From positions 1,707,501-1,771,500 of the forward strand of contig NZ_OY762653.1 in the NCBI RefSeq assembly GCF_963666195.1: 64,000 nt of DNA, written 5' to 3'. The DNA is from Trichococcus shcherbakoviae (GTDB lineage Bacteria; Bacillota; Bacilli; Lactobacillales; Aerococcaceae). The notes below the pieces were generated by a model. The model was not told the origin of the DNA. It worked only from the letters and a program-made list of their open reading frames with translations, and ran no database searches. Made by a program: the position numbers and the translations under genes. This document shows positions 43,828 through 54,187 of this stretch, one piece after another (position 1 is the stretch's first letter; every line of letters starts with the position of its first letter).

Positions 43828-43925
43828 AGAAAGAGAGTATTATGATTATGAGCTACTATTCGGCCAATGCGCAAATGAATTTGATATATAAAATCAATTT
43901 ATGGGTAATACTTGCCGTTTTTACT

Positions 43926-43955
43926 CAGGTTAGAATTCAGGTAACATAGTATACT
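43926..43955 (+). promoter_or_regulatory. direct-repeat element and -10 box before the secreted-protein gene
   Basis: CAGGTTA (43926) and CAGGTAA (43938), 12 bases apart, end six bases before TATACT (43950-43955). They occupy the -35 position, as sites for an activator often do. No standard -35 box. Confidence 0.4.
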
Positions 43956-44067: not shown

Positions 44068-44670
44068 ATGTTCAAGAAAAATATATTATTAGGGGTGCTC
44101 TCTCTCTCATTGCTTACTTCAAACACTATAGTTCCCTTGTCTGTAATGGCTGCTGCGGCAGAAATAGAACCTTCCCGCTCGTTAGTAACAAATAGCACTT
44201 CGATTTTAGAAAAAATAAATAGTAATTATACGCCCACAAGTACTTTGGAAAAAGATTTGAATACTGTAGAAGAGAATTATATTATTTCTTCTGAGGATTT
44301 AGCAGCTCTAAATGCTCAATTGTTTCCAACTCAACCAGGCAAATTCTCCACGATGTATGTTGGAGGAGATTACCCCAAAAGCACAGTCAGAGTATTATCG
44401 GGAAAGGTAAACCTCTCAACAGTTTCAGCTTTAGCTGCATTTCTCGTTACTAAAGGTAATTTGAAGTATGCTGCTGCCATAGAAGTTGCTAACATTGTAT
44501 TTGGTACAAACCTCCCCTCTGTTTATTACACTGTAAACCAAACAACTTGGAGGACGAACGGTATAACTTATGTTGAAGTGAAGACCACAGTCTGGAAATA
44601 CAGCAACTTTACTGGATATATTGGTCAGGGGATATCTTTAAAAACCTATTCAGATAACGGAATGGATTGA
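44068..44670 (+). CDS. unknown secreted protein, 200 aa
   Basis: I do not recognise the family. It has a clear signal peptide (residues 1-30, KKNILLGVLSLSLLTSNTIVPLSVMAAA, with a likely cut after AxA). The mature part is not strongly charged, has a Ser/Thr-rich stretch (about 36-60), an Ala-rich helix (VSALAAFLVTKGNLKYAAAIEVANIVFG, about 116-143) and a beta-rich C terminus (YTVNQTTWRTNGITYVEVKTTVWKYS). No Cys, no LPxTG, no lipobox. GGAGG lies 12 bases before ATG. It is A+T-rich compared with the preceding two-component genes, and overlaps or abuts the next gene, so the two are likely expressed together. Confidence 0.75.
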   Translation: MFKKNILLGVLSLSLLTSNTIVPLSVMAAAAEIEPSRSLVTNSTSILEKINSNYTPTSTLEKDLNTVEENYIISSEDLAALNAQLFPTQPGKFSTMYVGGDYPKSTVRVLSGKVNLSTVSALAAFLVTKGNLKYAAAIEVANIVFGTNLPSVYYTVNQTTWRTNGITYVEVKTTVWKYSNFTGYIGQGISLKTYSDNGMD

Positions 44671-44675
44671 TAATA

Positions 44676-44909
44676 TTGAAAAGAAAATTTAATCGCTTCT
44701 ATGGGCTTATATTTATAAGCTTAATTCTTTGTGAGTATGCTGATACACCTTGCATCCGCTGGGTACAATACCTTTTAGGAGCAGTATTTTTAGGATTACT
44801 GATTTTGGAAATATTCTATACAAAGAAAAGAGAAAATAGGATTAAAATAGATTCCATCATCATTCTCGCTATTTTTTTAATCTTAGCTTTTGTTTTTGGA
44901 ATCAAGTAA
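44676..44909 (+). CDS. small membrane protein, 77 aa
   Basis: Two or three hydrophobic segments (about residues 8-22, 29-46 and 58-75) separated by a charged loop KKRENRIK. It begins within a few bases of the end of the secreted-protein gene. The start is uncertain: TTG 44676 has a weak AATGGA site at nine bases; TTG 44667 in frame is an alternative. A small membrane protein right after a secreted protein is the arrangement of many toxin/immunity or bacteriocin/immunity pairs, but nothing in the sequence proves this. Confidence 0.55.
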   Translation: MKRKFNRFYGLIFISLILCEYADTPCIRWVQYLLGAVFLGLLILEIFYTKKRENRIKIDSIIILAIFLILAFVFGIK

Positions 44910-46128: not shown

Positions 46129-46731
46129 TTATTGTAGACGAACATTAATAATGCCCAATTCAATCGCTTTAATTACTGATTCAACAACAGTATTCGTTTG
46201 TAGCTTCTCACTCACAGAATACATATGATTTCGAACGGTCCTTTCCGAAATTCCCAGCTCAGATGCAACCGCGGTTTGTTTAACTCCTTGAGAGATCAGT
46301 TGTAAAATTTCTTTTTCTCTGTCTGTTAAAAGGATACGCCCTTTAGCCTTAAATTCAGGAAAAATTTTCTTGTTTTCAAATTGAATGATTTTCAGATTAT
46401 CCACTAAATCATCTGCTTCGATGTGTTTATCAAAAAAACCATGAGCACCAATCTTAAAAGCTCTCTCCTTATATTCTATCAGGCTAAAGCCTGACAAAAA
46501 AACCAGTTTTACCGGGTATTTTTGTAGTATTTGGCTCCCGATTTCTAGTCCGTTGTGTTCGCCCATGTGAATATCCATTAAGATGATGGATGGCATGTAG
46601 GAATCTACAACTTCGAGGGCTTTCTTTGGATCAGATAGGTAAAAAAAATCTGATATTTCAGAATAACTTTTGAGCGATATCTCCAGACTTCTTCCGATTA
46701 AGTGATGATCGTCAATTAATAGTATTCTCAT
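46129..46731 (-). CDS. ComA-like response regulator (NarL/LuxR family), 200 aa
   Basis: Receiver domain with DDHH (residues 7-10), phospho-Asp in ILMDIHMGE (about 55), Ser in VFLSGFS and Lys in FFDKHI. The C-terminal LuxR-type helix-turn-helix is LLTDREKEILQLISQGVKQTAVASELGISERTVRNHMYSV (about 133-172). The start overlaps the kinase stop by four bases (ATGA), so they are co-translated. Same domain layout and gene position as ComA of the ComQXPA system. It should act when phosphorylated by the kinase; its DNA targets are unknown. Confidence 0.9.
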   Translation of the reverse strand: MRILLIDDHHLIGRSLEISLKSYSEISDFFYLSDPKKALEVVDSYMPSIILMDIHMGEHNGLEIGSQILQKYPVKLVFLSGFSLIEYKERAFKIGAHGFFDKHIEADDLVDNLKIIQFENKKIFPEFKAKGRILLTDREKEILQLISQGVKQTAVASELGISERTVRNHMYSVSEKLQTNTVVESVIKAIELGIINVRLQ

Positions 46732-48692
46732 AAGGCTTCACCTTTTTCAAAAGGAATGTTTATTTCTATGATGGTTCCAGAGTTAACTGTTTCCATTGGA
46801 GAAATCTCAAAAGATCCATTTAACCACTTTAAATCATTTTTTATAGAAAGAAGTCCGATATGTTCTTTCCCCTTAAATAAATTTTTTTCAATTTTAAAGT
46901 AATCATGTATTCCTTTTCCATTATCTTCAATGACTATTGATAGAATATTTTTTTTGTTGAGTATTTTGGTTATTCCATAAGTAGCTTGTGAGTGTTTCCC
47001 AATATTTTCGTTGAGCTCTTTAATGACTCTATATACAGGAGCTACTAAGTGTTTGGGTAGTTCCCCATTTAACTGATAAATTAATAAATACTCAATTTCA
47101 GGATACTTGTGATTGAAATCTTCTATTAGAATTTGAATGTTTTCCTCAAAACTTAAATAATATAATGTAGATGGCGAAATATTAAAAACTTCATCTCGTA
47201 TAGATCGAATTAATTTTGAAAACTCTATGCGTACTAAGGATTCTATTTCATCATCTCCATGAAGATTTGAGACAAGGGTATGTAATCCGATAACGGACTG
47301 TAGGACGCTATCGTGCAAGTAATGCGTATATTTTGTTTTTTCTTTTTCAAGATTATTGAATAGTTTTGCTTGTAGTAATTCGGTTGTTCCTAGTGATGAA
47401 TCAATATATTTTTGCTGGTTAGTATGCATTTTCCTGATAGTCGTAATAATCCCTTCGTATTGATGAAGGATATCTTCTATATGATCTAAATCAACCGAAT
47501 AGTCTGTTTTTTCTATAAAGACAAATAACTTTTCGTGAAATCTTGAAACGGATAAATAATGGTAAGTGTTTCCACGTATAGTTACTTCTTGCTTTGAAGA
47601 GAGCGACGAAAAGAGTTCTTTTTTTATTGCTCGAGAAATTCTGTTTCCGGACTGACAGAGTACAAATCTTTGATTGTTCGATTGCATCATAACTAATATT
47701 GTCGAACTGTTTGTTTCACCTTTCAATCGATTCAGCAGTAAATTGGACACGCTATTCATAAAATTAGAGTACGTAACCTGATTCAGGAGTTCTATTTTTT
47801 CATTATTCAACTCTTCAATATTTTTTTCGGCTCTCATTTTTTTAAAGTGCTGAATAAATTGAATCAAAAAGTGAGAGAGATAACAAAAGAAATAAAAAAG
47901 CAGCGTGACTATCAGTTTGTTTTGCAAAGAAACTTCCAACCAACTGATGATTATAAAAAAACAAAAGCTTAAAATATTGATTGCCATATTCAAAATAAGG
48001 TTATCCGGTAACGAAATCGTCTTCATGTAACTCAAGATACAGGCAATGCACGTCGGAAATACCAAAACTAGTAAAGCTGTCCTCGGATCGCCCAATACGC
48101 CAGACGAAAAGACCGCTGGCAAAGAATAACTAACGATGAATGGAATAAAGGCCAACAGAACAGAAAAACTTAAAAATTTAAAACTTAATGAACTAAAGAA
48201 CAGTTTACGTTCCTTATATATAGTTATATAGCTTGTAGTGGTTGAAATAGATAACAGTAACAGCAAGGTGAATTCCGGATAAATTTTGAGAATAAAAGAA
48301 AAAAAAGAATAAATTGAACTACCTGTTAAAATTAACATACTTATTTTAAATAGTTTTCTATTTTCTGATTGAATAAATGAATATAGAAATAAATAAAGCG
48401 AAACTGGGCAAAGACACAAAAGCAATAACCCAGTAAAATTAAGCCAAGGGACGTTAGAGTAAATAAACAAGAACATCAAAGCCATAATCGTAGTTAAATT
48501 ATAAAACCTGGATGAGGAAGGATAGTCGGGTATATTTAAATAAATAAAACTGCCTAACGAAAAAATATAGGCGCCAATAAAGAGATAAATAAAATCCGTT
48601 TGTTCCATTGCGGTTAGGTAATAAAATATATAGGTCAGTATAATAAGCCAAGGCATTGTAACGCTAGCTATTTTCATTATTTTCAAATCCAT
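46728..48692 (-). CDS. ComP-like sensor histidine kinase, 654 aa
   Basis: N-terminal half has eight to ten membrane segments (residues about 10-290), a hallmark of ComP, followed by a GAF-like region (about 300-420) and a HisKA_3 kinase core: H box HYLHDSVLQSVIGLHTLV (His near residue 465), N box ELNENIGKHSQ, G box IEDNGKGIHDY and HIGLLSIKNDLKWLNGSFEI. HDxxxQ and the atypical ATPase mark the NarX/DegS/ComP group. B. subtilis ComP is longer (about 770). Start ATG one base after the comQ-like stop, with AAGGAG inside the end of that gene. Expected to sense the modified ComX-like peptide. Confidence 0.9.
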   Translation of the reverse strand: MDLKIMKIASVTMPWLIILTYIFYYLTAMEQTDFIYLFIGAYIFSLGSFIYLNIPDYPSSSRFYNLTTIMALMFLFIYSNVPWLNFTGLLLLCLCPVSLYLFLYSFIQSENRKLFKISMLILTGSSIYSFFSFILKIYPEFTLLLLLSISTTTSYITIYKERKLFFSSLSFKFLSFSVLLAFIPFIVSYSLPAVFSSGVLGDPRTALLVLVFPTCIACILSYMKTISLPDNLILNMAINILSFCFFIIISWLEVSLQNKLIVTLLFYFFCYLSHFLIQFIQHFKKMRAEKNIEELNNEKIELLNQVTYSNFMNSVSNLLLNRLKGETNSSTILVMMQSNNQRFVLCQSGNRISRAIKKELFSSLSSKQEVTIRGNTYHYLSVSRFHEKLFVFIEKTDYSVDLDHIEDILHQYEGIITTIRKMHTNQQKYIDSSLGTTELLQAKLFNNLEKEKTKYTHYLHDSVLQSVIGLHTLVSNLHGDDEIESLVRIEFSKLIRSIRDEVFNISPSTLYYLSFEENIQILIEDFNHKYPEIEYLLIYQLNGELPKHLVAPVYRVIKELNENIGKHSQATYGITKILNKKNILSIVIEDNGKGIHDYFKIEKNLFKGKEHIGLLSIKNDLKWLNGSFEISPMETVNSGTIIEINIPFEKGEAL

Positions 48693-48693
48693 G

Positions 48694-49641
48694 TTACTCC
48701 TTTAAATAGCTCTTTAATAAGGTAAAAACTTCTACAGAAATGTTAGAATTATTCTTTAGAATTTGAAAAGCTTCTTCAAAGTAAAGCGAGGCAGCTCTTA
48801 AACAATATTCAACCGCACCGCATTCTTCCATATAAAAGGCTAAGAAAGCTAGAGAATCCTCATCAGTTATTCGATGCTCAATAATAGTGAGAAACCTTTT
48901 ATCGGTGTTTATGCGTGCGTATTCAAGGGCCTTTGTAAAGGGAAGCGTTTCCTTGAATAAAACCAAATCCGACTTGCTCGTGTCCATGCAGTCTAGCGCA
49001 TCGTTTTGCAGTTGAAAAGCAGTAGAGAGATTTTGTGCGCAGTCTTTCCAAATAAGTTCATTATCAGGACAAGCAAGGTAGAAGACCAGTTGAACTAAAG
49101 GAGTAGATTTCTGCAGCATCTTAGAAAAATAAACTTCTGCAGAGGAATCTTCTGAAAGTGTTGAATAAAAATCGAAACGCTCTCCGTTTACTGATTCTGT
49201 AAGAAAAAATAATATCTTAGAGGTATCAAGATAGTTTTTGGTGAGTTCACAAAGCTCTCCTATACTTATAAAAAGCAGAGACATAGCATTAATGAGCAAC
49301 TCATTTTTTGGCAAAGCAATCACACTGTCCCCGTCTAAAATATCATCAAGGTAATCACACAAAATAAAAAGAATATCCAGTCTGACCGCAATCTGATTCT
49401 TTGTTGGAAGGGACTGTGGTTTATTTTGATCCAAAGAAAGAAACAAATAAACTTTCCCTAACGACAATCTGTCCGTACTTTTTTTTGACAACTCCATTTG
49501 CACGAGATCCACAAAGGAAGAGGGGAAATTCTTCTTAAATTCTGATAAGTAGGAAGTTAAAGCTACACCATATTCCTCTTCAATTTTATAAGGTCCCATA
49601 TTCTTGTATATCAATTTTTCGAACCCAGTTATTTTCACCAT
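48694..49641 (-). CDS. ComQ-like polyprenyl synthetase family protein, 315 aa
   Basis: Isoprenyl-synthetase fold. The first Asp-rich motif is intact in LCDYLDDILDGDS (DDILD, about residues 95-105); the second is degenerate, LQNDALDCMD, as in ComQ, where NDxxD replaces DDxxD. ComQ attaches a farnesyl or geranyl group to a Trp of ComX and trims the peptide. The start overlaps the comX-like gene by 56 bases and has no clear ribosome site, so its translation is probably coupled; ATG 49599 is an alternative start. No other isoprenoid genes are nearby, which argues against a housekeeping role. Confidence 0.85.
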   Translation of the reverse strand: MVKITGFEKLIYKNMGPYKIEEEYGVALTSYLSEFKKNFPSSFVDLVQMELSKKSTDRLSLGKVYLFLSLDQNKPQSLPTKNQIAVRLDILFILCDYLDDILDGDSVIALPKNELLINAMSLLFISIGELCELTKNYLDTSKILFFLTESVNGERFDFYSTLSEDSSAEVYFSKMLQKSTPLVQLVFYLACPDNELIWKDCAQNLSTAFQLQNDALDCMDTSKSDLVLFKETLPFTKALEYARINTDKRFLTIIEHRITDEDSLAFLAFYMEECGAVEYCLRAASLYFEEAFQILKNNSNISVEVFTLLKSYLKE

Positions 49642-49753
49642 TCAACGAGAAGGATACATTTCCATTTTTCCCGATGTCAAACAATGGGTTCTTTCTCTTT
49701 AACAGTATCTCCTCCTCAATTTTTTTCAACTTCTCTTCGATTACTTTATCCAT
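49586..49753 (-). CDS. ComX-like pheromone precursor, 55 aa
   Basis: Begins at ATG 49753, seven bases after AGGAG; a longer in-frame ATG (49774) overlaps that site. The product is 55 residues, the length of B. subtilis ComX. The N-terminal 22 residues are a charged helix (KVIEEKLKKIEEEILLKRK), then NPLFDIG, and the only Trp is residue 43 in NGENNWVRK. The C-terminal tail after Trp is 12 residues, longer than the known pheromones (about 3-7). In the known system Trp is isoprenylated by ComQ. Identification rests on size, the single Trp and the neighbouring comQ-, comP- and comA-like genes, not on sequence similarity, which is always low among ComX peptides. Confidence 0.7.
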   Translation of the reverse strand: MDKVIEEKLKKIEEEILLKRKNPLFDIGKNGNVSFSLNGENNWVRKIDIQEYGTL

Positions 49754-49805
49754 ACAGCCGCTCCTTTTTTTCATTTTACGTTCAGTATGTAGTCTTCCAA
49801 TAAAT

Positions 49806-49835
49806 ATTCTATCTTTTCAAAGATGAGTATGTCCA
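49806..49835 (-). promoter_or_regulatory. candidate promoter of the comX-Q-P-A-like operon
   Basis: On the minus strand TGGACA (49835-49830), an 18-base spacer, and TAGAAT (49811-49806), about 45 bases before the peptide start. Confidence 0.45.
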
Positions 49836-50202
49836 TGAATACATAGGGGGTTGCCGGTTTTACTCATACCTCTCGATACAGGAATCATTTAAACTGACTT
49901 TAGGAACATGGGCTTTCTGAAGTCTTGTTAATGTCAATTTGAAACGGAGATATTGGTTTATGTAAATGTTATATCACCATTATTTTCCTATGAAGATAAA
50001 GCCGAGAAAAATGCTGGTTGCTGCTTAACAAACTAAAAGCGTTAAGGAGGAGGCTCACTGCACTTTTTTGAGCCTTCAGCTGTTATTATAGCACTTTTTT
50101 TACAGAATAATGCGTGAGTATCTCAATAAAATTATATATTAAGAATGGACTCCGACTCCCGGGATAAAATCCAACAACAAATCAAGAAAGGAAGGCACTT
50201 AT
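49836..50202. other. divergent intergenic region between the quorum-sensing and exporter operons
   Basis: About 370 A+T-rich bases with no gene. GCACTTTTTT occurs twice in direct orientation (50060 and 50091, 31 bases apart, about three helix turns), a possible regulator site. GGCTC/GAGCC short arms lie near 50052-50074. I see no ComA-type TTGCGG-N4-CCGCAA box. Confidence 0.4.
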
Positions 50203-51059: not shown

Positions 51060-51113
51060 GGAATGAAGAGAGACAAGGCAAAGGAAGAACAAACGAATAA
51101 AAAAGGATTTAAA

Positions 51114-52307
51114 ATGAAACCACTGTCCAAAAAGAAACGCATAATCTTTAGTGCCGTATGGGGAGTGATCGCCATTTTAGCGATCAGTGCGGCATTTTTT
51201 TTCAAACAAAAACAGCAGCAGGAACCTGCAGTGGCCTCCTATGAGTCGGTAACGATAGAAAAAGCCGATGATTTAATTTTTAATGGATCCGTTGCGGCTC
51301 AAAACGTAGAGGAATTCTATTATGATCAGACAAAGGGCGAGGTTTCCGACATTTTAGTAACAAATAATCAAGAAATCAGTGCAGACACGGTGGTTTTGGT
51401 CTATCAAAACGAAACCGTACAAGATCAAATAACGGAACAGCAACAAACGCTCGATAAACTAACTTTAGCAGTGAATAATGCACAAGAAAATCTGGACAAT
51501 ACGTATATAAAAAAACAAACTATTCAAAATAGTTTGAATGAAGCATTAAGTACATTCAATAATGCAGATGCCGATTCAATGGAAGGTCAAGCCATTCGCC
51601 AAGAAGAACAACCTAAAATGGATCAGTATAAAGAAGCTATCTCTTCCCAGGAAGAAGTCATCTCACAAGCGCAGCAGGCACTAGATTCCGCAAACTTGGA
51701 TTTATCCACTGCCACTCAAAATATCGAACTTGCCAAGAATAAAATTACAACAAATGTTGCAGCAACAACTGACGGAACCGCCATTGTGGAACCAAAAGGG
51801 AAAACAAATGCGAGTGTTCCCGTTATTAAAATTTTAGGCAAAGACACAATCATAAAAGCATTAGTTTCCGAGTATGATTACAGACACTTAGCAACAGATC
51901 AAGCTGTGGAAATCCAATTGCTGAACAGTAATAAAAAAATCGCAGGTACGATCACAGAAGTCAGTATATTGCCGGAATCTACGGCTACTGAGGGGACTGC
52001 AACTGCACAATCTAATGTGGCAAATTATTCCTTCAAAGTAAAACCATCAGAAAATTTACAATATGGGTATAGTTGCCAAATTTATGTACCCGTTAATGAA
52101 CTGCGTATACCCGAAAAGGCAATCCTGAACGAAGAGGATAAGCAGTATGTTTTTGTCTATTCCAAAGGAACTGTCAAAAAACAGCCAATCCTGTCAGAAA
52201 ATAGAGACGGTGTTTTTGTTGTCACAGAGGGATTAAAAGAAAAGGATCGAATTATTTCCAATCCGTCCCAAGATTTAAAAGACGGCCAAGAAGTGATGGT
52301 GAATTAG
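51114..52307 (+). CDS. efflux periplasmic-adaptor-type (MacA/HlyD) subunit, 397 aa
   Basis: Membrane-fusion-type protein: one N-terminal helix (about residues 10-28), a long coiled coil (about 100-215, many Gln/Glu/Asn/Ala heptads) that splits a lipoyl/barrel-sandwich part, then a beta-barrel domain (about 240-330) and a C-terminal domain (LRIPEKAILNEEDKQYVFVY...GLKEKDRIISNPSQDLKDGQEVMV). ATG 51114 has AAAGGA at six bases; ATG 51063 is in frame but has AAGGA touching it. In Gram-positives such adaptors work with MacB-type ATPase/permease pairs to export peptides or antimicrobials. Confidence 0.85.
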   Translation: MKPLSKKKRIIFSAVWGVIAILAISAAFFFKQKQQQEPAVASYESVTIEKADDLIFNGSVAAQNVEEFYYDQTKGEVSDILVTNNQEISADTVVLVYQNETVQDQITEQQQTLDKLTLAVNNAQENLDNTYIKKQTIQNSLNEALSTFNNADADSMEGQAIRQEEQPKMDQYKEAISSQEEVISQAQQALDSANLDLSTATQNIELAKNKITTNVAATTDGTAIVEPKGKTNASVPVIKILGKDTIIKALVSEYDYRHLATDQAVEIQLLNSNKKIAGTITEVSILPESTATEGTATAQSNVANYSFKVKPSENLQYGYSCQIYVPVNELRIPEKAILNEEDKQYVFVYSKGTVKKQPILSENRDGVFVVTEGLKEKDRIISNPSQDLKDGQEVMVN

Positions 52308-52991
52308 ATGATCAGTTTGGTTAATGTGAATAAATACTATAAGAACGATGAAGAAAGCCTGCATGTCCTAAAAAATATTAATCTGGCGATTGCTCCAGGT
52401 GAAATGATTGCCATTATGGGTCCATCGGGATCGGGCAAATCAACCTTAATTAATTTACTGGGATTCATCGATAAACAATTCGAAGGGCAATACTTATTTG
52501 AGGGAAAGACGTTATTGACTTCTTCCGATGAAACCCTCTCAAAAATCCGGAATCAAACTGTGGGCTTTGTGTTTCAAAATTTCAGCTTGATCGAGAATAA
52601 TACTGTTTTTGAAAACGTTGAATTACCCTTGCTTTACAATGGCTATAAATTTCACCAAACAAAAGAAAAGGTAATGGCTGTTTTGAAGAAAGTGGGTCTT
52701 TCCGATAAGGCGGATAAACACCTGAAACAGTTATCAGGCGGCCAACAGCAGCGCGTGGCAATTGCCAGAGCGTTAATTAACCAACCTAAATTCCTCATCG
52801 CAGACGAACCGACGGGGGCATTGGATTCGCATACTTCTGAGGAGATTATGAAGTTATTTGTGGATTTGAATACCCAAGATCAGGTTACGATTATTCTCGT
52901 TACACATAACCCTGATATGGTCCCGTATTGTTCAAGATTAATAAGTATTCGCGATGGTGAGATTATTGAAGATAAGGCGTTACGCCCATGA
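52308..52991 (+). CDS. ABC transporter ATP-binding protein (MacB/LolD type), 227 aa
   Basis: ABC ATPase of the MacB/LolD group. Walker A GPSGSGKST (about residues 38-46), Q loop FVFQNFSLIENNTVFENVELPLLY, signature LSGGQQQRVAIARAL (about 142-156), Walker B FLIADEPTGALDS (about 161-173) and the switch His in VTHNPDM. Its ATG directly follows the adaptor stop. The permease start overlaps its end by four bases. Confidence 0.94.
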   Translation: MISLVNVNKYYKNDEESLHVLKNINLAIAPGEMIAIMGPSGSGKSTLINLLGFIDKQFEGQYLFEGKTLLTSSDETLSKIRNQTVGFVFQNFSLIENNTVFENVELPLLYNGYKFHQTKEKVMAVLKKVGLSDKADKHLKQLSGGQQQRVAIARALINQPKFLIADEPTGALDSHTSEEIMKLFVDLNTQDQVTIILVTHNPDMVPYCSRLISIRDGEIIEDKALRP

Positions 52992-54187
52992 ACATATATG
53001 TTAATTGGCGAACCGCTACTAAAGCAATCTTAAAAAACAGAAAACGAAGCCTGTTAACCATATTTGGCATTGTGATTGGGATTGCCTCCGTCATCACTAT
53101 TTTATCAATCGGCCGCGGATTTGAGAAAGAAACGTTAAGGAATTTAACCAATGGTGAATCGGATGAAGTGAACATACAAGTAAATTATGCCCCAAGTAAC
53201 GATAGTCTGAGCTACAGCAGTTTGGATTATTTCACTGATGTGGACATTGCAACCGTAAAGCAAGTTGCGGGAGTGAAATCCGCAAATTACCCTGACCCAG
53301 ATTATTCGAACATTTATAAAGGCATTTACATCAAAGGCAAAAAACAGAATAAACAAGTTTCTTTAATAAATGATCTAGGTAAGGATCCCATTGTCGGACG
53401 TCAGCTAACATCGTATGAAAACGAAACGCTGGATAAAGTAGCTATGATAGATTCCGTTACCGCAAAAGAGATGTATGGAAGTGCTGAAAACGCAATGGAT
53501 CGTGGTATTGAATTAGATGGCCATTTATTCAAAATAATCGGGATTTATCAAGGCTCGGAGTCAGAAAGTATGTTTTCTATGCCAGAAAGCAACATTCAAA
53601 TTCCCAAAAAAACATATTTGCACTATTTCAATGACACGGCTGAAAAATCTTCCTTAACAGTGACATTAGAAAAGGGAGCCACGCCTAGTTCCGTGACGAC
53701 GGATGTGATTGAACAACTCGAGGAAAAGGGTGCAATGAAAGCTTTTGGTGAGTATCAAGTATTCGATACCGCCTTATTAACTGACGGGATCAGTAAAATC
53801 CTCCGCACGATCACAGTATTTATTTCAGCTGTTGCCGGAATATCACTATTTATTGCAGGTGTAGGGGTAATGAATATGATGTACATTTCTGTCTCGGAAA
53901 GGACAAAAGAGATTGGGATTCGACGTGCGCTGGGAGCGACCCAAAATTCCATTCGGATGCAATTTCTTTTGGAGGGCGTCACACTGACCTTGTTTGGAGG
54001 GATTGTGGGCTATATTGTAGGCATCAGTTTGGCTTACATAATTGGATCCATCATTGACATTCCAATTTCAATTGAATTTTCAACTGTGTTTTTAGCCATA
54101 AGTGTATCGACTGGTATAGGGTTAATTTTCTCTGTCATGCCTGCTTCAGCAGCTGCTAAAAAAGACCTGATCGAAACATTAAGATAA
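52988..54187 (+). CDS. ABC transporter permease (MacB/FtsX type), 399 aa
   Basis: Typical MacB permease topology: helix 1 (about residues 19-40), a large extracytoplasmic MacB-PCD domain (about 45-265), then three helices (about 270-295, 325-350, 360-385). Signature GVGVMNMMYISVSERTKEIGIRRALGA (about 289-315) is present. ATGA overlap with the ATPase gene. The three genes form one exporter, in the island beside the ComQXPA-like locus. Cargo unknown. Confidence 0.93.
   Translation: MNIYVNWRTATKAILKNRKRSLLTIFGIVIGIASVITILSIGRGFEKETLRNLTNGESDEVNIQVNYAPSNDSLSYSSLDYFTDVDIATVKQVAGVKSANYPDPDYSNIYKGIYIKGKKQNKQVSLINDLGKDPIVGRQLTSYENETLDKVAMIDSVTAKEMYGSAENAMDRGIELDGHLFKIIGIYQGSESESMFSMPESNIQIPKKTYLHYFNDTAEKSSLTVTLEKGATPSSVTTDVIEQLEEKGAMKAFGEYQVFDTALLTDGISKILRTITVFISAVAGISLFIAGVGVMNMMYISVSERTKEIGIRRALGATQNSIRMQFLLEGVTLTLFGGIVGYIVGISLAYIIGSIIDIPISIEFSTVFLAISVSTGIGLIFSVMPASAAAKKDLIETLR

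Follow-up and report, generated by a model that had tools for sequence, protein, structure and literature searches.

The 64,000-nucleotide stretch of Trichococcus shcherbakoviae DNA analyzed here (the window), which belongs to a 2.93-Mb single-contig genome (Carnobacteriaceae, Lactobacillales), carries four tightly packed minus-strand genes, X, Q, P and A, which probably form an isoprenyl-peptide quorum-sensing cassette that is sister to ComQXPA and switches on a bacteriocin-type cargo slot. X (49586-49753) is a candidate pre-pheromone of 55 amino acids, counted from its ATG, with its sole Trp at residue 43 and 12 residues behind it; an in-frame upstream ATG at 49774 on the same strand would extend it to 62 amino acids. 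Q (48694-49641) is a candidate ComQ-type Trp isoprenyltransferase of 315 amino acids, with DDILD at residues 99-103 and a pseudo second aspartate-rich motif (pseudo-SARM), NDALD, at residues 213-217. P (46728-48692, 654 amino acids) is a ComP-like polytopic histidine kinase, and A (46129-46731, 200 amino acids) a ComA-like response regulator with a LuxR-type helix-turn-helix (HTH). X and Q overlap by 56 bases, one base separates Q from P, and P and A overlap by 4 bases. Because homologues of Q begin about 15-20 residues inside the 315-residue frame, a start at Met15 (49599) was considered; it may be the true one and would shrink the X/Q overlap to 14 bases. All four open reading frames (ORFs) are intact. 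An earlier sequence-only reading, which had proposed a ComQXPA-like quorum-sensing locus, had given these genes, coordinates, overlaps and motifs correctly to the base.

Q matched the Pfam polyprenyl_synt family above cut-off (33.7 vs. 27 bits), while the two other synthases of the window genome were far stronger (217.6 and 183 bits vs. 33.1 bits for Q). A tree of 57 rows separated the 37 ComQ-like rows from 20 housekeeping rows at 100/99. The window protein fell within a 17-row clade (98/91) beside the canonical ComQ clade (100/99), the latter holding 19 labelled rows and one orphan, HK_L087, which was labelled housekeeping, yet has the N-opening motif and a position in canonical ComQ. In the alignment of the tree rows, the second motif opened with N in 36/36 ComQ-like rows (14/14 X-first, 3/3 divergent-X and 19/19 canonical by label) and with D in 20/20 housekeeping rows. 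The first aspartate-rich motif (FARM) was DDxxD in 35 of the 36 ComQ-like rows, the exception being DEISD in G298 (G and L numbers are our handles for genomes and loci). According to one review, Trp isoprenylation requires NDxxx or GDxxx and an N to D exchange drastically lowers activity (PMC5331326); another describes the second motif as repurposed for Trp recognition (PMC13290415). Q combines a DDxxD FARM with an NDxxx pseudo-SARM, as expected of a ComQXPA enzyme, and differs from housekeeping synthases in its second motif, which is not DDxxD, and in its position outside their rows. The grouping with housekeeping synthases that the sequence-only reading had named as fatal to its proposal was not seen, and the degenerate NDALD that it had picked out is borne out as a ComQ trait. 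Judged by motif and tree, Q is a ComQ-type enzyme, which would prenylate X.

Some features of the tree define how it is to be read. G543 and G704 are long branches whose placement is uncertain, and G370 carried an X-first label, its X being later located downstream of A. G004 and G021 were left out, their Q frames being broken. Housekeeping rows were drawn from 24 loci, of which L002, L113 and L121 gave no frame under the motif filter; of the window genome's two other synthases, L001 is therefore in the tree and L002 is not. Among 30 Pfam-ComX loci, 12 have no row: 10 without a full ComQ frame beside X (among them L028, which is partly masked), and L039 and L044, omitted as same-genus near copies. 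A phmmer search of Q against the PDB returned two weak octaprenyl synthase matches only, and an AlphaFold2 model built from two alignment rows had a mean predicted local distance difference test score of 41.

P exceeded the Pfam HATPase_c cut-off and, being polytopic with the H-box LHDSVLQ, shows the ComP combination of membrane part, HATPase and LHDxxLQ. The sequence-only reading had called it a polytopic HisKA_3 kinase. Pfam HisKA_3 (PF07730) was not reported for P at E≤1, so that this label draws on a resemblance to MctS/UhpB/NarX-type kinases, all of them far below those models' cut-offs. A exceeded the cut-offs for Response_reg and GerE, the receiver plus LuxR-type HTH of ComA, in agreement with the earlier description of a LuxR-type response regulator. 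In the P tree, 14 rows were separated from 6 at 100/100, the same division as in the Q tree; no outside kinase was included, so that its root is arbitrary, and G019 (a P frame of 254 amino acids, the contig ending 105 bases beyond) and the near copies G001, G004, G006 and G216 were omitted. In a Kyte-Doolittle scan, a loop of about 100 residues between the first and second transmembrane segments (TM1-TM2 loop) was present in 6/6 kinases of the canonical clade, including that of G229 with its reversed X. Among the 13 kinases of the new clade, it was clear only in G111 and unclear in G704.

X is conserved in four Trichococcus genomes and in G600, whose proteins are 34% (X), about 50% (Q), 57% (P) and 68% (A) identical to those of the window. 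Upstream of the Q overlap, the proportion of nonsynonymous differences (pN) was 0.011-0.044 and that of synonymous differences (pS) 0.146-0.339 in 6/6 pairs of the four Trichococcus genomes, on small counts of 3-7 synonymous and 1-4 other changes per pair. G600 X retains NG-x-x-x-W-V-R. The sequence-only reading had also named loss of the micro-ORF where the other genes stay as a point that would count against it; the frame was kept in G001, G004, G006 and G600. Further, a micro-ORF of 45-80 amino acids with a Trp at most 11 residues from its end and a stop near the Q start was found in 10/13 X-first loci. Dinucleotide shuffles gave such a frame in 55 of 3900 cases, and of 204 other ORFs in the retrieved loci 15 qualified, including three true canonical ComX genes and one lantibiotic gene. 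The three Trichococcus rows missed this limit because 12 residues trail their Trp. With the limit raised to 12, and with all of these limits chosen after the loci had been inspected, the counts were 13/13 X-first loci and 1/20 housekeeping synthases, the shuffle and 204-ORF figures referring to 11 only; G004 and G021, with their broken Q, were outside the test. X looks like a real gene under purifying selection, and the micro-ORF like more than chance. In 13 of 15 other X candidates, 1-4 residues follow the last Trp (e.g., NEWV, GGLWK, DGPWRK and SKWV), the remaining two being G600 with 8 and G021 with 16.

Q was searched against 395 Lactobacillales genomes, giving 12 matches at E≤0.001, of which 10 were left after G059 and G480 had been assigned to housekeeping synthases by tree and motif. 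A Q profile run against 398 Bacilli genomes gave 122 matches at 1e-10; these comprised canonical ComQ and housekeeping enzymes as well as members of the clade, and 15 stretches were inspected. The X-first order was found in the window, G001, G006, G004 (Q frameshifted), G600, G019 (whose contig ends just beyond the short P frame), G543, G365, G298, G111, G174, G399 and G216, and also on the Priestia megaterium plasmid pBM700; in G021, an X-like frame lies ahead of the broken Q. Eleven further records of Priestia plasmids were found by Q match alone, and when plasmids were searched by tblastn with P, 139 records matched, including 15 from Priestia; among the matches listed, none spanned 80% of P. 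G710, G605 and G704 have a divergent X upstream of Q, ending WPK, WPR and WPN, respectively, and in G370 X follows A and ends WPM. The order Q-X-P, as in Bacillus, occurs in L131-L135, with A found in 4/5, and L130 (G229) has Q, a reversed X and then P. Among the 15 stretches, at 1e-5, only Q was matched, and neither P nor A, in L136 and L137, while L131 lacked a match to A. Q-P-A synteny recurs across Bacilli. The sequence-only reading had seen a divergent, X-first ComQXPA outside the Bacillus group. This holds for the Trichococcus locus and for its ComQ-like nature; the order, however, is not peculiar to Lactobacillales, as other Bacilli, including pBM700, have it, and the X-first, divergent-X and downstream-X loci form a clade beside canonical ComQ rather than a stray member.

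The named Trichococcus relatives are T. paludicola B7-2 (L013) and T. collinsii DSM 14526 (L014). In T. collinsii (L014/L016), Q is frameshifted near its N-terminus, although the other three frames remain open; this is possibly a signal-less strain, and relatives hold intact copies. Over window positions 46400-48799, which take in the 5' half of A and the bulk of P, identity to T. collinsii L016 is 99-100%; in neighbouring DNA it drops to 90% in places, which suggests a recent exchange.

A comparison of G174 with G399 revealed where the cassette varies. Their flanking DNA is mostly 94-98% identical (87% in two 300-base windows of a neighbouring gene), whereas identity within the cassette is 85% over X, 61-69% over Q and the start of P, and 82-89% further into P, before returning to 94-98%. 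At the protein level, the first 41 residues of X are identical, with divergence around the Trp tail; Q is 59% identical, the first 300 residues of P 69%, the rest of P 97%, and A 99%. In B. subtilis, comQ, comX and the 5' end of comP are described as poorly conserved (PMC6334282). The G174/G399 divergence, comprising the X tail, Q and the P N-terminus, is the Bacillus pherotype pattern.

Upstream of X lies a putative operator, ATGAGTAAAACCGGCAA-N14-ATGGACA (49830-49867, minus strand), which is exact in G004 and G006 and has two mismatches in G001. G600 has two exact copies of the bipartite element with the same 14-base spacing as in Trichococcus; the second copy (L057, position 300) lies near transposase-like frames recognized by eye. 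The 17-mer was read by eye from the X promoters and then scanned, so that only a second site counts as a test. Over the whole 2.93-Mb genome, it occurred with at most two mismatches at two sites only, 5.9 kb apart: before X, and at 43912-43928 (minus strand), 140 bases upstream of a gene for a secreted-looking protein. At up to three mismatches, 12 sites were found vs. 6 for a reversed control pattern. The second site is retained in G001 (one mismatch) and G004 (two), and is out of view in G006 owing to a contig end. The two sites fit a local regulon with exchangeable cargo, though the second has no ATGGACA half.

Elsewhere in the clade, a looser frame, ATGAGTA-N-A-N4-GCAA, also stands ahead of Q in G710 and G605 and of X in G370, and a scan of other loci in the clade (L061, L060, L018, L019, L050, L123, L124 and L126-L129) gave no match. 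GTAYATTGTGCAA is exact in G710, G605, G704 and G370, with no match at two or fewer mismatches upstream of the Trichococcus X. Enumeration of gapped dyads over 14 promoters was rejected as a source of operators, yielding mostly AT-rich words. Upstream of X in L123 and L124 (G365 and G298) there is a palindrome, TATTTTCCGCAAT...ATTGCGGAAAATA, with CCACAAT/ATTGTGG in G298, that resembles the B. subtilis ComA box.

The gene behind the second site (44068-44670, plus strand) encodes a candidate cargo, a 200-residue protein with an N-terminus that looks by eye like a signal peptide and with no assigned family; a phmmer search against the PDB gave nothing below E 0.17. Directly after it, an 80-residue protein (44667-44909, plus strand), by eye a small membrane protein, is immunity-like by position only. 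In G001, the gene after the corresponding site encodes an unrelated secreted-looking protein in the same place; homology between the two was rejected on comparison. On the other side of the cassette, a divergent plus-strand ATP-binding cassette (ABC) operon encodes an HlyD/RND_mfp-like adaptor (51063-52307, below the model cut-off, 42% identical to the G605 copy), an ATPase (52308-52991, 74% identical to the G605 copy) and a MacB/FtsX-type permease (52988-54187, over both Pfam cut-offs). In G605, the homologue of this operon lies within about 6 kb of Q-P-A with two circular bacteriocins in between. A lantibiotic cluster is located near the X-first locus of pBM700, LanM and a lichenicidin-type peptide, over cut-off, near the related locus of G704, and a macrolactam-cyclase-like protein, well below cut-off, near that of G710.

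Taken together, the Q motif and tree, the conserved X and the P and A domains support the ComQXPA-like quorum-sensing reading, and there is a high likelihood that the cassette works in the manner of ComQXPA. Q would attach a prenyl group to the sole Trp of X, which would be cleaved, leave the cell and, once outside, bind the membrane part of P; P would pass phosphate to A. By binding the operator upstream of X, A would create positive feedback, and by binding the second site ahead of the secreted-protein gene it would turn on a cargo slot of bacteriocin type at high population density. The cassette may in this way be linked to a neighbouring slot whose products are secreted and bacteriocin-like.

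Several observations weigh against this interpretation. As regards strict membership of ComQXPA, the order is X-Q-P-A and not Q-X-P-A, Pfam ComX (PF05952) gave no match at E≤1 in X of the window or of 10 relatives, Q is nested not in the canonical clade but in its sister, and the Kyte-Doolittle scan found no TM1-TM2 loop in the window P; because of these four differences we file the cassette as a sister variant. X matches no Pfam family. A search of the whole window genome with PF05952 also found nothing, a result of limited sensitivity, as 0/14 control genomes including B. subtilis gave a match; apparently either this model or the initial filter overlooks a ComX that, going by the literature, should be present in B. 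subtilis. The 12 residues behind the Trp of the Trichococcus X are many, given that the RO-E-2 ComQ is reported to need Trp second to fourth from the C-terminus; the same review holds a long-tailed precedent in the natto precursor, with Trp at 54 of 73 (PMC5331326). An LW near the N-terminus, noted by eye in 8/15 other X candidates, is absent from the Trichococcus and G600 X, and no pherotype swap was seen among the Trichococcus genomes. With regard to the cargo, the site at 43912-43928 has two mismatches and no ATGGACA half, no bacteriocin family was over cut-off in the scanned window proteins, and the bacteriocin neighbours come from a scan of selected neighbours without a matching count around canonical loci. 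A strict tie between ABC operon and cassette was rejected: the operon is present in 7/12 Trichococcus genomes and the cassette, by P, in 4/13 (G006 and G007 being incomplete assemblies), and because of this difference the two are not obligate partners.

The same patchiness, together with absence of the cassette from another genome of the species (G664), the frameshifted Q of T. collinsii, the interrupted Q of G021 and the near-identity of the P/A segment to T. collinsii between more divergent flanks, could mean that the cassette moved recently, is decaying and has stopped signalling in this strain. With all four ORFs intact in the window, and X and its operator-like site conserved, we regard this as quite unlikely. 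Still further down the scale, and in our view highly improbable, is that Q is an ordinary polyprenyl synthase whose position between a two-component pair and a spurious ORF is accidental: polyprenyl_synt is indeed its sole Pfam match, general prenyl synthase models being weak, but the genome's two other synthases match far more strongly, tree and motif counts separate Q from the housekeeping rows, and Q-P-A synteny recurs across Bacilli.

More serious, though still improbable, is the alternative that X is a prenylated product of the ribosomally synthesized and post-translationally modified peptide (RiPP) class, with P and A sensing envelope stress or the product itself for self-protection and no quorum signal involved. 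A model for it exists in PalX-PalQ-PalP of Paenibacillus alvei, presented as a RiPP cluster, in which a prenyltransferase of the isoprene synthase superfamily acts on a C-terminal Trp and which includes a kinase gene (PMC10853753); three of the related loci described above also lie near recognized bacteriocin genes. PalX, however, is described as having an NHLP-type leader and a strictly C-terminal Trp, and PalQ as occupying its own cluster in a sequence similarity network, with a SARM containing D200 and D204; the set comprises three genes with no response regulator among them (PMC10853753). The window X, by comparison, has 55 amino acids, no Pfam match and 12 residues after the Trp, and Q has the ComQ-type NDxxD, so that the cassette is set apart from PalQ by description. 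In G174/G399, moreover, Q has diverged along with the tail of X and the P membrane part, and A has not, as for a signal and its receptor, and the operator-like site sits upstream of X itself. We therefore favor the quorum-sensing cassette sister to ComQXPA.

The closest described system is ComQXPA, as known from Bacillus subtilis and from its non-subtilis clade (Dogsa et al. 2014, PMC4008528), which shares with the cassette four adjacent, overlapping genes, a DDxxD plus NDxxx enzyme, a short Trp peptide, a polytopic LHDxxLQ kinase and a LuxR-type regulator, along with the pherotype pattern seen here in a relative. In that census the gene order is Q-X-P-A, some loci have comX on the opposite strand, and no locus lies outside Firmicutes; the text covered, Table S1 aside, mentions neither Lactobacillales nor an X-first order. 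The 'unusual' com-like loci described there (Fig. 4A) have an opposite-strand comX, as do G710, G605 and G704; in the census, the hypothetical comX is placed between comQ and comP, an arrangement shared by G229, whereas in our three loci it lies upstream of Q with Trp-Pro near the C-terminus. We found no literature, subscription sources lying outside the search, that joins ComQ, ComX and Lactobacillales, or ComQXPA and Priestia megaterium. Nor was such a locus among the literature matches listed for ComQXPA with Carnobacterium, Trichococcus with quorum sensing, ComQ/ComX with bacteriocin or with Staphylococcus/Macrococcus, or ComXQPA, the last being an alternative name for the B. subtilis system (PMC6334282).

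We consider it about evenly balanced whether these loci make up a second isoprenyl-pheromone branch that runs parallel to ComQXPA, is carried both chromosomally and on plasmids by Lactobacillales and further Bacilli, and acts as an exchangeable local regulator of bacteriocin-type slots (class I/II lantibiotics, circular bacteriocins and secreted proteins), swapping with other regulators in one Trichococcus slot. The findings would extend Trp-isoprenyl signalling into Lactobacillales, and it becomes possible that signals of this type commonly serve to control bacteriocins locally rather than competence. Further, the loop-less kinase and long peptide tails are natural variants with which ComP ligand perception and ComX cleavage and export could be probed, and the clade is a source of new candidate peptide prenyltransferases.

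In G005, another Trichococcus (L152, 12993-15061), the chromosomal slot of the cassette is taken up by a gassericin-type circular bacteriocin (PF12173, over cut-off), along with an HTH regulator and a protein that narrowly misses the SpoIIM cut-off, and in G011 the same slot is occupied by an Rgg-type regulator (PF21259). In G370 (L125, 373-5569), the X that follows A is itself followed by an ABC gene and by one that matches pitrilysin very weakly, possibly an unrecognized RiPP cluster.

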